Source of the DNA: Chitinophagia bacterium
GTDB taxonomy: Bacteria; Bacteroidota; Bacteroidia; Chitinophagales; Chitinophagaceae
DNA: 22,984 nt
Assembly (NCBI GenBank): GCA_010027295.1
Contig: RGVM01000004.1
Coordinates: forward strand, 1-22,984
Direction of reading: 5' to 3'
Part shown: positions 14,379 to 19,149 of the stretch, in pieces
How positions within the stretch are numbered: the first letter of the stretch is position 1
How the letters are laid out: the number at the start of each line of letters is the position of its first letter
The notes under the pieces: generated by a model
Databases searched by the model: none
Seen by the model: the letters and a program-made list of their open reading frames with translations, nothing else
What the model was told of the DNA's origin: nothing
Position numbers and translations under genes: made by a program

Positions 14379-15119
14379 ATGTTCTCCATCTTCAGGAAAA
14401 AGAAGCCAGAGGAGCCCTTCCCGTTCCATCTCGTGGGAACGGACATGCATTCCCATATCCTGGCCGGCATCGATGATGGTTCGCCGGACCTGGACGTGTC
14501 CACGACGCTCGTAAAGGGGCTCCTGGACCTGGGGTATTCGAAACTCACCGCCACGCCCCATGTGATGGAGGACCTCTTCCGCAATACCAAGCGGACCATC
14601 CAGGAGGCGCACAACAACCTGCAGCTCAAATTGGCGGAAGAGGGCATCCAGGTGCCCATCCGCTTTGCAGCAGAATACCTCCTGGACGGCAATGTCGACA
14701 CCATGCTCGCCAAGAAGGTGCCCTTGCTGACCTTGAAGGACAACCTCGTACTGGTGGAGATCTCCTTCGTCAGTCCGCCCATGTACCTGAGGGAAGTGCT
14801 CTTCGAACTCCAGATGAAAGGCTACCAGCCCGTATTCGCACACCCCGAGCGGTATTTCTTCTACCACACCAAGCCCGCCGAATATTCAGATATCAAGGAC
14901 ATGGGTTGCCTCTTCCAATGCAACCTCCTGTCTTTCAGCGGTTACTACGGCCCTCCCGTCCGTCAGGCAGCCGAATACCTTGTCAAACACGGCATGGTGG
15001 ACTTCGTCGGTACCGATATCCATCATGAGAAGCACCTGCAGGCCCTTCGGGAACTGACACAGACTCCCAGCCTGGCAAGGCTTATCCATGAGAAGGGTGT
15101 CATGAACACTCGTCTATGA
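14379..15119 (+). CDS. Tyrosine-protein phosphatase, CpsB/CapC (YwqE) family, PHP fold, 246 aa
   Basis: A metal-dependent phosphotyrosine phosphatase of the PHP superfamily, as in CpsB, Wzb-like CapC and YwqE. The family removes phosphate from the tyrosine tail of bacterial tyrosine kinases that control capsule or EPS export. Visible metal ligands are TDMHSHILAGIDDG (His24, His26, Asp32, Asp33), TATPHV (His61), AAEYLLD (Glu99), FAHPERY (His155) and GTDIHH (Asp213, His215). The basic, proline-containing start MFSIFRKKKPEEPFPFH is usual for Bacteroidota members. It follows fcl by 69 bases and ends the polysaccharide block. No cognate kinase/Wzc gene is in the window, so its target must lie elsewhere. 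Confidence 0.9.
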   Translation: MFSIFRKKKPEEPFPFHLVGTDMHSHILAGIDDGSPDLDVSTTLVKGLLDLGYSKLTATPHVMEDLFRNTKRTIQEAHNNLQLKLAEEGIQVPIRFAAEYLLDGNVDTMLAKKVPLLTLKDNLVLVEISFVSPPMYLREVLFELQMKGYQPVFAHPERYFFYHTKPAEYSDIKDMGCLFQCNLLSFSGYYGPPVRQAAEYLVKHGMVDFVGTDIHHEKHLQALRELTQTPSLARLIHEKGVMNTRL

Positions 15120-15179
15120 CCTTTCACGAATAATTGGGAACCTCAGAACAATTCTGGGTCGTCATTGTTATAAGCCACG

Positions 15180-16061
15180 ATGAACGCCTTCACGATCAAG
15201 GATCTGGAAAACCTAACCGGGATAAAGGCCCATACCATCAGGATATGGGAACAGCGTTATTCCTTCCTGAAACCGAGGCGAACCGACACCAATATCCGTT
15301 ACTACAGCAACGAGGAGCTCAAGAAGATCCTCAACATCGCGCTGCTCAATAAGTACGGCTACAAGATTTCCCATATCGACCGGATGTCTGAGCCTGAGAT
15401 CAACGACAAGATCATCAGCCTCAGCAATTCCCTGGCCCAGCACGAGAAGATCATCAACGATCTGATCCAGTCGATGGTTGACATGGAAATGGAGTCCTTC
15501 GAGGACTGCCTGACCGACTACATCCGTCAACGGGGCATCGAAAAGGCAATCAGCCAAATCATCTTCCCTTTCCTGGAGAGAATCGGTGTCCTCTGGATGA
15601 CCGGGCATATCATTCCCGCCCAGGAACACCTCGTGTCCAACATCATCCGTCAGAAGATCCTGGTGGGTATCGATACGGTCACCACCCATCTTCGGGCCGA
15701 GAAGACCCTCATCCTCTTCCTCCCAGAGGGGGAATTCCACGAGTTGGGTCTTTTGTTTGTCTATTATATGTTAAAGAGCCGTGGCATACGGGTCGTCTAT
15801 TTAGGGGCAAACGTGCCCCTCGACGACGTCCAACAGGTCATCGGCTACAAGAAGCCGGACTTCCTATACACGCACCTGACCTCCGTCTCCCACGCTTTCA
15901 ACTTCGACAGGTTCATCGCCCAGTCCCTCAAGAAGTTCGACACCACCCCCCTCATCATCTCCGGCAAGCTGGCCCTGTCCTACGAGAAGAAAATCCCTCC
16001 CCAGATCATCTTCAAGCGCTCCCTCCAGGAGGTAACCGAGTTCATTGCTACGATACACTAA
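15180..16061 (+). CDS. carH: MerR-family transcriptional regulator with B12-binding domain, CarH/LitR-like, 293 aa
   Basis: A DNA-binding photoreceptor-type repressor. The N-terminal MerR helix-turn-helix (FTIKDLENLTGIKAHTIRIW, wing region RYYSNEELKKIL) spans about residues 4-70. A four-helix bundle (about 85-165) carries Trp139-x9-Glu149-His150, the W-x9-EH motif that marks light-sensing adenosylcobalamin proteins of the CarH group. The Rossmann domain has EFHELG (Glu185, His187, Gly190), the ExHxxG form that supplies the lower axial histidine to cobalt. Where Thermus CarH has its light-state upper ligand His132, next to the tryptophan, this protein has Met140. In the dark, family members with adenosylcobalamin repress carotenoid genes, and light breaks the tetramer. 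The position immediately before a sigma factor and crtI/crtB fits that role. It ends 120 bases before the sigma-factor gene. Confidence 0.9.
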   Translation: MNAFTIKDLENLTGIKAHTIRIWEQRYSFLKPRRTDTNIRYYSNEELKKILNIALLNKYGYKISHIDRMSEPEINDKIISLSNSLAQHEKIINDLIQSMVDMEMESFEDCLTDYIRQRGIEKAISQIIFPFLERIGVLWMTGHIIPAQEHLVSNIIRQKILVGIDTVTTHLRAEKTLILFLPEGEFHELGLLFVYYMLKSRGIRVVYLGANVPLDDVQQVIGYKKPDFLYTHLTSVSHAFNFDRFIAQSLKKFDTTPLIISGKLALSYEKKIPPQIIFKRSLQEVTEFIATIH

Positions 16062-16087
16062 TTCTCCCCACTTCCGCCCTCTCCTCG

Positions 16088-16123
16088 TTTTGTTGAAGAG
16101 TAGTTGAAAAAAATTCAACAAAA
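16088..16123. promoter_or_regulatory. Operator-like inverted repeat O1 upstream of the ECF sigma gene
   Basis: TTTTGTTGAA (16088-16097) is repeated in perfect inverted form as TTCAACAAAA (16114-16123) with a 16-base spacer. Inside the spacer another GTTGAA (16103-16108) lies exactly 11 bases after the first GTTGAA (16092-16097) and 11 before TTCAAC (16114-16119). An 11-base period suits a CarH-type protein whose subunits bind successive 11-bp repeats. TTCAACAA also fits the nTnnACAn core reported for that group, as I recall it. The right arm ends one base before the -33 TTTG. Confidence 0.65.
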
Positions 16124-16124
16124 T

Positions 16125-16157
16125 TTTGGTGCCCTCCCTGGCTTTTGTTTAAATTTG
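16125..16157 (+). promoter_or_regulatory. Bacteroidota-type promoter for the ECF sigma gene
   Basis: A -33 TTTG (16125-16128) and a -7 TAAATTTG (16150-16157, consensus TAnnTTTG) are separated by 21 bases, within the normal range for the primary sigma factor of Bacteroidota. Transcription would start near 16162, leaving a leader of about 20 bases. O1 abuts the -33 box and the left arm of O2 overlaps the -7 box, so bound regulator would block polymerase. Confidence 0.7.
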
Positions 16158-16177
16158 TCGAGAAGGAATTAAACAAA
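16144..16177. promoter_or_regulatory. Operator-like inverted repeat O2 overlapping the ECF sigma promoter
   Basis: TTTGTTTAA (16144-16152) and TTAAACAAA (16169-16177) form a perfect 9-bp inverted repeat with a 16-base spacer, the same arm design and spacing as O1. The two elements are offset by exactly 55 bases, five 11-bp units. A further TTTGTCGA-like half-site lies within the spacer at 16154-16161. O2 covers the -7 box and extends to four bases before the start codon. Confidence 0.65.
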
Positions 16178-16181
16178 GGCC

Positions 16182-16682
16182 ATGTCCAAACAGGATTTCA
16201 ACCAAATGCTGCTTCAGAACACTGAGTTCCTGAAGCCTTTTGCGGTGACGCTGACGAAGGACCACGAGTCTGCCAAGGATCTCCTGCAGGAGACCATGTT
16301 CCGGGCGCTGGCCAACCACGACAAGTACAGTGTGGGGACCAATATCAAGGCCTGGCTGTACACGATCATGCGGAACATTTTCATCAACAACTACCGCAGG
16401 AAGGCCAAACAGAACACCATATTCGACAATTCCTCGAACGACTTCCTGCTCGACTACAACCAGTCGACCATTGACAACGGGGCTGAGAGCAGCCTCAGGA
16501 TGAAAGAAGTGAAGGCAGCCATCCATGGTTTGCCGGAGATTTTCCGCCAGCCTTTCCTCTTGTATTTCGAGGGATACAAATACCATGAGATTGCCGATGC
16601 ATTGGGAGAGCCCTTGGGTACGATCAAAAGTCGCATCCATTTCGCCCGGCGTCTCCTGAAGGAGCAGATATCCAGGTTCTGA
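16182..16682 (+). CDS. RNA polymerase ECF-type sigma factor, 166 aa
   Basis: A two-domain sigma-70 family protein lacking regions 1 and 3. Region 2 (about residues 13-75) includes ESAKDLLQETMFRAL, the core-binding helix, and NIKAWLYTIMRNIFINNYRR, the -10-melting part. After an acidic and asparagine-rich linker, region 4 (about 105-162) has IHGLPEIFRQPFLLY and the helix-turn-helix GYKYHEIADALGEPLGTIKS for -35 recognition. No anti-sigma gene follows, so control probably comes through its own promoter, which is flanked by the O1 and O2 elements. This resembles Streptomyces LitS, an ECF factor controlled by LitR that drives carotenoid genes. I infer that it transcribes crtI and/or crtB. Confidence 0.93.
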   Translation: MSKQDFNQMLLQNTEFLKPFAVTLTKDHESAKDLLQETMFRALANHDKYSVGTNIKAWLYTIMRNIFINNYRRKAKQNTIFDNSSNDFLLDYNQSTIDNGAESSLRMKEVKAAIHGLPEIFRQPFLLYFEGYKYHEIADALGEPLGTIKSRIHFARRLLKEQISRF

Positions 16683-16690
16683 GTCGGCGG

Positions 16691-16707
16691 ACCGTCGTCC
16701 GGACGGT
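16691..16707. repeat. Short inverted repeat between the sigma gene and crtI
   Basis: ACCGTC (16691-16696) pairs with GACGGT (16702-16707) around a 5-base loop; within it CGTCCGGACG is a perfect 10-base palindrome. It lies in the 60-base gap before crtI and has no T-run after it. It may be a small operator or a weak hairpin, or chance in GC-rich DNA. Confidence 0.3.
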
Positions 16708-16742
16708 AGGCAGGCCCTTCACGTCCCAACAACCCATAGCCA

Positions 16743-18218
16743 TTGTCCAAAAGAGCGGTCATTATCGGCAGCGGTTTCGCAGGCCTATCTGCTGCATCCT
16801 TCATGGCCCGTGCGGGCTGGCAGGTGACGGTCCTGGAGAAGCATGACATGCCGGGGGGCAGGGCCCGGCGCCTCGTCGAGTCGGGGTTCACCTTCGACAT
16901 GGGCCCCAGCTTTTATTGGATGCCGGACGTCTTCGACCGGTATTTCGCCTGTTTCGGGAAGCAGGTGGCTGACTATTACGATCTCCGTCGCCTTGATCCC
17001 TCGTACCGTGTTTACTGGTCCGATGGTCCGATGGATGTTCCGGCGGACTATGAGGCATTCTGCGGGATGCTGGAGGGGTTGGAGCCGGGTGCCACCGCCC
17101 AGCTGGCCCGCTTCCTGAACGAGGCCGAGTACAAGTACCGGGTTGGCATCGACAAGCTTGTATTCAAGCCGGGGCAGTCGCTGATCGAACTGGTGGATGC
17201 GGACCTCATTCGCGGACTGTTCCGACTCGACGTGTTCCGGTCCATCAAGAGCCATGTGGCGAAGCATTTCCGACATCCCAAGATCCGTCAGCTGCTGGAG
17301 TTCCCGGTGCTCTTCCTGGGTGCGAGGCCGGAGGATACGCCGGCGCTCTACAGTCTCATGAACTATGCCGACATCCGGCTGGGCACCTGGTACCCGATGG
17401 GTGGCATCTATGCCGTCGTGGAGGCCATGCACCGGCTGGCGATGGAGCAGGGGGCCGTGTTCCGCTTCGGCCGCAACGTCGACAGGGTCGATATTTCGGG
17501 ACGTTCGGTGAAGAGCGTACATACCTCCGACGGTGAGGTATATGAAGCAGACGTGGTGATCGGCGGTGCGGACTACCATTTCATCGAAACACGCCTCCTG
17601 CCGAAGCAATACCGTTCCTATTCGGACGCCTGGTGGGACCGCCGCCTCATGGCGCCCGCCGCCCTGCTGTATTATGTGGGGCTCGACACGCGCATCCCGG
17701 GTATCCCCCATCACTCGCTGTTCTTCGACGAGCCCTTCGATCCCCACGCCCGTGACATATACGTCACGAAGAGCTGGCCCGACAAACCCCTTTTCTATCT
17801 CAGCGCTTCCAGCGTGACCGACCCTGCGGCCGCCCCGGAAGGCTGTGAGAACCTTGTCTTCCTGATCCCGCTGGCGGCCGGCCTCGAGGGTGATTCCGAG
17901 GAGGTACGCGAGCGTTATTTCCAGATCATGGCCGACAGGCTGCAGCGCTATACGGGAGTCGACATGCGCCAACACCTGGTCTATAAGCGCTCCTACTGCC
18001 ACAGCGATTTCCGGCACGACTACAACGCCTTCAAGGGCAACGCCTACGGTCTTGCGAACACGTTGCTCCAGACGGCCCACCTCAAGCCCTCCTGTAAAAG
18101 TTCCAAACTCGATAACCTCTTCTATACGGGACAGCTGACCGTACCAGGACCGGGGGTGCCGCCCAGCCTCATCAGCGGCGAGGTGGTCGCCGGGCAGGTG
18201 CTCTCCCGTTTCGGTTGA
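16743..18218 (+). CDS. crtI: Phytoene desaturase (CrtI type), TTG start, 491 aa
   Basis: An FAD-dependent, membrane-associated enzyme that introduces double bases of conjugation into phytoene, normally through to lycopene in bacteria. The dinucleotide-binding fold is complete: AVIIGSGFAGLSAA with Gly9, Gly11 and Gly14, Glu32 at the end of the second strand, then DMPGGRARR. The next segment, FTFDMGPSFYWMPDVFDRYF, is characteristic of bacterial CrtI. The C-terminus has LFYTGQLTVPGPGVPPSLIS, the conserved FAD-binding tail. The start codon is TTG at 16743; the first in-frame ATG (codon 21) would delete the FAD loop, so TTG is preferred. It lies 60 bases after the sigma gene and 94 before crtB. 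Closely related CrtN or CrtD-type desaturases are less likely given the crtB partner. Confidence 0.93.
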   Translation: MSKRAVIIGSGFAGLSAASFMARAGWQVTVLEKHDMPGGRARRLVESGFTFDMGPSFYWMPDVFDRYFACFGKQVADYYDLRRLDPSYRVYWSDGPMDVPADYEAFCGMLEGLEPGATAQLARFLNEAEYKYRVGIDKLVFKPGQSLIELVDADLIRGLFRLDVFRSIKSHVAKHFRHPKIRQLLEFPVLFLGARPEDTPALYSLMNYADIRLGTWYPMGGIYAVVEAMHRLAMEQGAVFRFGRNVDRVDISGRSVKSVHTSDGEVYEADVVIGGADYHFIETRLLPKQYRSYSDAWWDRRLMAPAALLYYVGLDTRIPGIPHHSLFFDEPFDPHARDIYVTKSWPDKPLFYLSASSVTDPAAAPEGCENLVFLIPLAAGLEGDSEEVRERYFQIMADRLQRYTGVDMRQHLVYKRSYCHSDFRHDYNAFKGNAYGLANTLLQTAHLKPSCKSSKLDNLFYTGQLTVPGPGVPPSLISGEVVAGQVLSRFG

Positions 18219-18253
18219 GCATCTCCGTGGTACGCTTGTGCCACTACCTTCGG

Positions 18254-18300
18254 CTTTTGTGAACAAAAGACCGGGTTATTTCGTATATTCATTGAACAAA
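18254..18300. promoter_or_regulatory. Operator-like half-sites O3 upstream of crtB
   Basis: CTTTTGT (18254-18260) and ACAAAAG (18263-18269) form a compact palindrome with a 2-base centre. TTGAACAAA (18292-18300) exactly matches the right-arm consensus TTnAACAAA of O1 and O2. GTGAACAAA (18259-18267) matches it at all but one base, and the two copies are 33 bases apart, three 11-bp units. The last copy lies 12 bases before the crtB start codon. No clean TAnnTTTG box is present, so the promoter here is either divergent or read by the ECF factor. Confidence 0.5.
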
Positions 18301-18312
18301 GTCCAGGAAATC

Positions 18313-19149
18313 ATGCTCCGGATCTTCCATGAAGTCAGCCAGGCCTGCAGTCGCATCACCACGGAGCGCTACAGCACCTCCTTCAGCAGCGCCATACGGA
18401 TCCTGCATGAGGACATCCGGACACCGATCTACAACATTTACGGTTTCGTCCGTTTCGCCGACGAAATCGTGGACACCTTCCATGACCACGACAAGGAGGC
18501 CCTGCTGGCCGACTTCAAGCGGGAGACCTACGAGTCCATAGCCCGGGGTATCAGCCTGAACCCCATCCTGCACAGCTTCCAGATCACCGTCAACCGCTAT
18601 GGCATCGACCATGAACTGATCGAGGCTTTCTTCCGCAGCATGGAGTTCGACCTGGATCGGCACCGGTATGACCAGGTCGGGTATGAAGAGTATATTTACG
18701 GCAGTGCCGAGGTTGTCGGGCTTATGTGCCTCTACGTTTTCTGCGACGGCGACAGGGAGCTCTACGAGAACCTGAAGCCCAATGCGCGCTCGCTGGGGGC
18801 CGCCTTCCAGAAGGTCAACTTCCTGCGCGATGTGAAGGCCGACTACATGGACCTCAAGCGGGTCTATTTTCCCGGAGTAGACTTCCAGCGTTTCACGCCC
18901 GACATGAAGCGCACCATCGAGGAAGACATCGCGAAGGATTTCCGCCATGCCTACCAGGGCATTGTGCGACTGCCTCTGAAGGCGCGCTTCGGTGTCTATC
19001 TGGCCTACAAGTACTATCTCAGCCTATTCCGGAAGATCTGCAACGTCCAACCCCAGCGCATTCTCGAGGAGCGCATACGCATTCCCAATCATGCGAAGCT
19101 CTGGGTGGCAACCAAGGCGGTGATCCGCACGCAACTCAACATGCTCTGA
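18313..19149 (+). CDS. crtB: Phytoene synthase, 278 aa
   Basis: The enzyme condenses two geranylgeranyl diphosphates head-to-head to phytoene, the first committed carotenoid step. It is an all-helical trans-isoprenyl synthase with both Mg/diphosphate motifs: FADEIVDTFHD (Asp50 and Asp54) and FLRDVKAD (Asp173 and Asp177). It also has the conserved GSAEVVGLMCLYVF and AAFQKVNFLRD stretches. ATG 18313 gives the normal length and begins just before EVSQACSRITTERYSTSF. The frame stays open to 18238, but that extension would run through the O3 repeats and is unlike the family. It ends seven bases before the convergent dusB stop. Squalene synthase family members have similar motifs, but the crtI neighbour settles it. 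Confidence 0.94.
   Translation: MLRIFHEVSQACSRITTERYSTSFSSAIRILHEDIRTPIYNIYGFVRFADEIVDTFHDHDKEALLADFKRETYESIARGISLNPILHSFQITVNRYGIDHELIEAFFRSMEFDLDRHRYDQVGYEEYIYGSAEVVGLMCLYVFCDGDRELYENLKPNARSLGAAFQKVNFLRDVKADYMDLKRVYFPGVDFQRFTPDMKRTIEEDIAKDFRHAYQGIVRLPLKARFGVYLAYKYYLSLFRKICNVQPQRILEERIRIPNHAKLWVATKAVIRTQLNML

Follow-up and report, generated by a model that had tools for sequence, protein, structure and literature searches.

Two exact copies of a wide palindrome, TTTGTTnAA-N16-TTnAACAAA, lie in the 120 bp gap between a gene for a CarH-like regulator and an ECF sigma factor gene, and very probably they form the operator of this neighbouring regulator, a putative photoreceptor repressor of the AdoCbl type, at the sigma factor promoter. 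Judged from the sequence comparisons below, the element is most likely a real and conserved operator, belonging to a Bacteroidota variant of CarH/LitR control, with the adjacent CarH-like protein as its binder.

Twin palindromes at the sigma factor promoter

The window (the whole stretch of DNA analysed, 22,984 nucleotides) is one contig of a 3.57 Mb assembly of 923 contigs. The features of the locus are the following:

15180..16061, plus strand: CarH-like MerR/B12-binding regulator (293 aa), proposed binder, assigned by Pfam, sequence and predicted fold
16089..16122, no strand: distal palindrome (putative operator 1), TTTGTTGAA-N16-TTCAACAAA, arms 16089-16097 and 16114-16122, upstream of the -33 element
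16103..16108, plus strand: extra GTTGAA, 11 bp after the GTTGAA at 16092 in the first arm, not conserved
16125..16128, plus strand: predicted -33 element TTTG, in the linker between the palindromes, weakly conserved
16144..16177, no strand: proximal palindrome (putative operator 2), TTTGTTTAA-N16-TTAAACAAA, arms 16144-16152 and 16169-16177
16150..16157, plus strand: predicted -7 element TAAATTTG, N21 after TTTG and sharing bases with the left arm of operator 2
16182..16682, plus strand: ECF sigma factor gene, proposed controlled gene, with Sigma70_r2 and Sigma70_r4_2
16743..18218, plus strand: phytoene desaturase (CrtI/D), above the NF058655 cut-off
18238..19149, plus strand: phytoene/squalene synthase family protein (CrtB-like), SQS_PSY

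The phytoene desaturase gene is probably in the same operon as the sigma factor gene. The initial annotation had described the duplicated element with its arms, 16-base spacers and 55 bp offset, and every coordinate was correct on checking. Only these two matches were found in the window at up to three mismatches, both exact, while 100 dinucleotide shuffles gave a mean of 0.01, so the pair is far beyond chance. In the source assembly as a whole, the pattern with 9-base arms is exact only at these two places. A third site in the same genome (C66:1133-1166, equivalent to L003:1133-1166) is one base off this pattern and has exact seven-base arms (C66:1135-1164); it is followed by a reading frame of 65 aa that had no relative in 40 other genomes of the genus and no Pfam match.

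TTTG at -33 and TAAATTTG at -7 are presumably promoter elements of the Bacteroidota type. The distal palindrome ends two bases before TTTG, and the proximal one covers the -7 element and the likely (predicted) transcription start. The earlier description of elements that flank and overlap a TTTG-N21-TAAATTTG promoter was confirmed, with TAAATTTG overlapping the proximal palindrome in its left arm. At 16140-16181 of the window, the palindromic match of operator 2 is longer, GGC(T/C)TTTGTTTAA...TTAAACAAAGGCC, and reaches the ATG; in a profile of 61 promoters, little conservation was seen around the proximal palindrome beyond its A/T flanks. Before the window's own carH-like gene there is no good site, the best one having five mismatches.

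Conservation, gap and association with the CarH-like gene

Conservation was studied in 60 genomes, own included, of which 48 had a match to the regulator at an E threshold of 0.001, some of them weak. A sigma factor gene was present at 24 of 30 same-genus loci, own included; the remaining loci (L012, L023, L024, L025, L028 and L034) had no sigma match and were left out. Both palindromes, written as TGTTTAA-N16/17-TTAAACA and allowing up to two mismatches each, were found in 23 of these 24 same-genus promoters with left arms 54-56 bp apart, and only L033 has the proximal site alone.

The wider set consisted of 130 loci (50 plus the best 80 of 589 named Bacteroidota records), which gave 96 distinct sigma promoters after exclusion of loci without a sigma match and of promoters identical in their last 70 bp. 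At up to two mismatches, the proximal site is present in 87 of these 96 promoters and the distal and proximal sites together in 65, compared with means of 0.43 and 0.00 in 30 dinucleotide shuffles of the same promoters. The search for the bipartite motif before sigma genes at CarH-like loci of other Bacteroidota, suggested by the initial annotation, thus showed that the arms are conserved. Among the best 80 of 589 loci, a site at up to one mismatch was found in 66 of 80; where a sigma gene is adjacent, the count is 64 of 67. The 20 more distant CarH-like loci divide into 11 with such a site and nine without one (L041, L046-L050 and L052-L054); L048, L050, L052 and L053 are second copies, with 34-39% identity, in genomes that also carry a close homologue.

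The 55 bp offset turned out to be typical rather than fixed. Among the 65 two-site promoters (including those from the best 80 of 589 loci), it is 54-58 bp in 58, 43-44 bp in four and 63 bp in three, and an offset of 36 bp occurs in one further promoter of the best 80 of 589 loci. In the 61 promoters of the profile, chosen for an offset of 54-58 and a distal site with up to three mismatches, the linker from -17 to -7 is low in information (0.01 to 0.36 bits per position) but maintained in length. The -7 element, TA-n-n-TTT-(A/G), is strongly conserved and straddles the inner edge of the proximal palindrome's left arm, and TTTG is weakly conserved. Conservation is concentrated in the inverted arms, whose near-constant letters are partly built in because sites were picked by match, and the middle of the distal site is A/T-rich.

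These data bear on the binding array proposed in the initial annotation, in which successive CarH subunits would contact 11-bp repeats in the manner of Thermus and the two elements would stand five 11-bp units apart. Such an array is improbable. In the own genome, the first element does have a second GTTGAA at +11 and the offset is 55, but GTTNA at +11 was found in the distal site of the window only (1/65 distal sites and 0/87 proximal sites), other offsets occur, and the inverted arms, not the repeat, are the conserved part. The extra GTTGAA in 11-bp phase is a true feature of the window and not of the motif in general, and what stands of the earlier interpretation is an operator-like element with the adjacent CarH-like protein as its most likely binder. 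A common helical phasing of the offset is not claimed, as 36, 44, 55 and 63 bp share no single phase.

The gap between the arms is strict. Within 645 kb around CarH-like genes (best 80 of 589), 53 pairs of exact arms are spaced by N16 and 23 by N17; all remaining gaps between 2 and 35 (32 values) account for 7 in total, with no more than 2 each. In 296 genomes of the class, drawn evenly and at least 85% complete, 308 exact copies of the N16 motif were counted, compared with 32 of the reversed pattern. With the CarH-like gene called at E 1e-20, the motif was found in 150 of the 197 genomes that carry this gene and in 9 of the 99 that lack it; 47 of the 197 have the gene and no exact N16 motif. 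The reversed pattern also leans to genomes with the CarH-like gene (24/197 versus 4/99, P 0.03; Fisher values overstate independence, since the genomes are related), so base composition contributes a little.

It is also quite unlikely that the palindromes are the site of another regulator merely co-occurring with CarH. Some room for it comes from the genome survey, which covered CarH-like, sigma and rhodopsin genes only; the strong link to CarH-like genes, the adjacent position of the regulator and the half-site, which fits TnnACA, argue against it.

Less probable still is an autoregulatory or other site of the ECF sigma factor itself. Among 168 sites at up to two mismatches (best 80 of 589 loci), 122 precede a sigma gene, 24 precede carH, 1 precedes crtI and 21 are unassigned. 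However, when the class genomes were divided by both genes (sigma homologue called at E 1e-25, which may include paralogues), the exact motif was found in 119/161 genomes with both, 31/36 with the CarH-like gene only, 2/33 with the sigma gene only and 7/66 with neither, indicating that the motif tracks CarH and not sigma. The motif is also present upstream of carH, crtI, folE and rhodopsin genes, and a wide palindrome is not the usual form of an ECF promoter.

The least credible reading is that hairpins form in the leader RNA of the sigma gene and act as a terminator, riboswitch or start-codon mask, for although both palindromes can pair (-31.3 kcal/mol, z -2.0, equalled by 9 of 200 shuffles) and the second ends beside the ATG, no Rfam match up to E 0.1 was found in 14900-17000, the predicted promoter would leave the first palindrome and the left arm of the second untranscribed, and the same letters occur at other genes at a varying distance from the ATG.

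The regulator and its proposed mode of action

The protein favoured as the binder, the CarH-like regulator, has the Pfam domains MerR_1, B12-binding_2 and B12-binding in the order of CarH, the C-terminal B12-binding match scoring 30.1 bits, just under the cut-off of 32.1. Thermus CarH was matched by sequence with E 2.8e-22, and CarH structures are the top sequence matches. The predicted fold has a mean pLDDT of 89.5 and its top PDB matches are 5c8e and 5c8d, both CarH. The Wx9EH and ExHxxG motifs are present, with W139, E149-H150 and E185-x-H187 unchanged in all 22 sequences aligned, the window regulator among them; the last Gly of ExHxxG is kept in the window regulator and lost in some distant relatives. 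A PF01923-type cobalamin adenosyltransferase is encoded in the own genome, so AdoCbl synthesis is probably possible provided that cobalamin is obtained. No LOV protein was found in a Pfam scan of five window proteins.

The regulator was not classed as CarH proper, since it scores 113.5 bits against the 400 required by the NCBI equivalog NF052513, lacks the upper light-state ligand of Thermus CarH, His132 (Met140 in the window regulator, with no His at this column in 22/22 sequences), and has no tandem 11-bp direct-repeat operator of TnnACA (the half-site fits but is inverted, and the +11 repeat is not conserved). It probably works like CarH. The Thermus H132A variant was reported to remain largely a tetramer after illumination, although disassembly had been described before (PMC10442372). 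With His132 missing in all 22 sequences, the light step may differ from that of CarH.

Each arm holds one half-site of the CarH type, as TTAAACA contains T-n-n-A-C-A. Within each palindrome the half-sites face each other, 23-24 bp apart, from which we infer two DNA-binding domains per palindrome, symmetrically placed, and four per promoter, provided by one tetramer bridging both palindromes or by two dimers. In the dark, the B12-loaded regulator would fill both palindromes and shut out RNA polymerase. In the light, the B12 cofactor would be broken, the regulator released and the sigma gene transcribed, and the sigma factor together with the downstream crtI-crtB genes would lead to more carotenoid. 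A dark repressor is the simplest reading because filling both palindromes would exclude RNA polymerase. An activator of the MerR type would be expected between -33 and -7; here, the palindromes flank the promoter instead, so repression fits better than such activation.

In Thermus, repeats 1 and 3 are contacted by a CarH dimer in head-to-tail arrangement (PMC9304148), and these repeats are 22 bp apart given the 11-bp tandem spacing. The spacing within each palindrome is near this value but one half-site is reversed, so the linkers of the regulator would have to allow a domain flip.

Control of the regulator gene itself appears to be only sporadic, as few sites precede carH genes. Among the named loci (best 80 of 589), 1 of 79 has an exact site before carH, 9 have one at up to one mismatch and 19 at up to two mismatches, a level at which one off-gap control reaches 11.

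The CarH half-site was published as TnnACA, and the operators of Thermus, Bacillus and myxobacteria are described as tandem direct repeats; T. thermophilus and Bacillus megaterium CarH use three or four 11-bp direct repeats of nnnnTnnACAn (PMC9304148). The dual palindromic layout does differ from the direct repeats of Thermus, as the initial annotation had noted. The domain order, Wx9EH, ExHxxG, TnnACA, the promoter overlap and the nearby crt genes are shared with the Thermus and B. megaterium systems. In contrast, the half-sites here are inverted and wide apart in two separate palindromes, His132 is absent and the operator precedes an ECF sigma gene.

The class II LitR proteins of Pseudomonas, PplR1 and PmlR2, have TGTACA-N12-TGTACA sites, and PmlR2 binds two of them, one covering the -35, the other located between start site and ATG (PMC9758184). 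They resemble the present case as MerR-type repressors of the LitR/CarH family with inverted half-sites and two wide palindromes per promoter (here relative to a predicted start), but the sequence is TGTTTA-N18-TAAACA here, with an inner gap of 18 versus 12 bp. Moreover, PmlR2 depends on a separate LOV photoreceptor (PMC9758184), while the window regulator keeps the B12-binding residues.

The operator of CarA and CarH in Myxococcus xanthus was described as two inverted repeats in about 55 bp, with CarA binding as two dimers (PMC9304148, PMC8156234). For CarA and Cystobacter CarH, direct rather than inverted repeats were later argued to be the recognition element (PMC9304148). The two inverted repeats proposed for M. 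xanthus, of which one lies upstream of the -35 region and the other covers it, are like the layout found here. In that system, later work reads direct repeats and the inverted ones are degenerate in relatives, whereas here the inverted arms are the conserved part.

Escherichia coli MlrA and BluR are not known to be B12 photoreceptors. They are likewise MerR-type regulators with spaced half-sites, the MlrA site being palindromic with a 12N spacer, and differ from the present case in the GTACA half-site and in their targets (PMC3509220).

Occurrence of the motif before rhodopsin, pterin and other genes

In the class genomes, the exact sites also stand before carH, crtI, DUF4397-like and rhodopsin genes (among the matches listed, 30 loci). 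A rhodopsin gene was found in 65 of the 296 genomes, and the CarH-like gene is present in all 65 versus 197 of 296 overall. The 350 bp upstream of the rhodopsin gene were surveyed at 50 of these 65 loci. The motif at up to one mismatch precedes 22 of the 50 genes (13 exact, 9 with one mismatch) and is absent from this stretch in the other 28, while 20 shuffles gave 0.05 at up to one mismatch and 0.0 exact. The gap again peaks at N16/17. The exact sites are those of L201, L207, L212, L214, L220, L226, L229, L233, L237, L239, L240, L243 and L245. The palindrome upstream could possibly be a B12-dependent light switch for rhodopsin, which is a lead and not a finding about the window. The own genome also has a rhodopsin gene (C227, L227:3211-3867), with no site in the 212 bp upstream to the contig end.

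The same site before pigment, sigma factor and some rhodopsin genes in a large group of Bacteroidota suggests a shared light switch. On balance, we lean slightly towards a single operator, TGTTTAA-N16/17-TTAAACA, used across much of the class, with inverted half-sites read by B12 photoreceptors lacking His132 and with light inducing sigma-carotenoid genes, pterin genes and, in many species, rhodopsin genes. If true, this would explain how rhodopsin genes of Bacteroidota could be light-induced and would offer a candidate for their light control. With so sharp an operator, the light regulon of this Bacteroidota group would become predictable from sequence, and a second DNA-reading mode would be added to a photoreceptor family used in optogenetics. 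Light-induced carotenoid production has been reported in Bacteroidota, where a CarA/LitR-like regulator was only speculated upon (PMC7064467). No operator of a Bacteroidota CarH-like protein was named in the literature searched, which comprised titles and abstract openings, with most subscription journals outside it.

Among the matches listed, exact sites lie next to GTP cyclohydrolase I-like genes (L135:1501-1530, L140:2123-2152 and L142:1501-1593) and a 6-pyruvoyl-tetrahydropterin synthase gene (L138:1501-1530). Pterin genes with sites parallel folM, a folate/pterin gene among the light-inducible genes of the class II LitR system (PMC9758184). Pfam confirmed GTP cyclohydrolase I (L135), the synthase (L138), DUF4397 (L158) and rhodopsin (L162), and the other target genes of exact sites were judged by resemblance. 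In addition, at L139, L143, L149 and L158, among the matches listed, exact sites lie upstream of genes for mutually similar repeat proteins.
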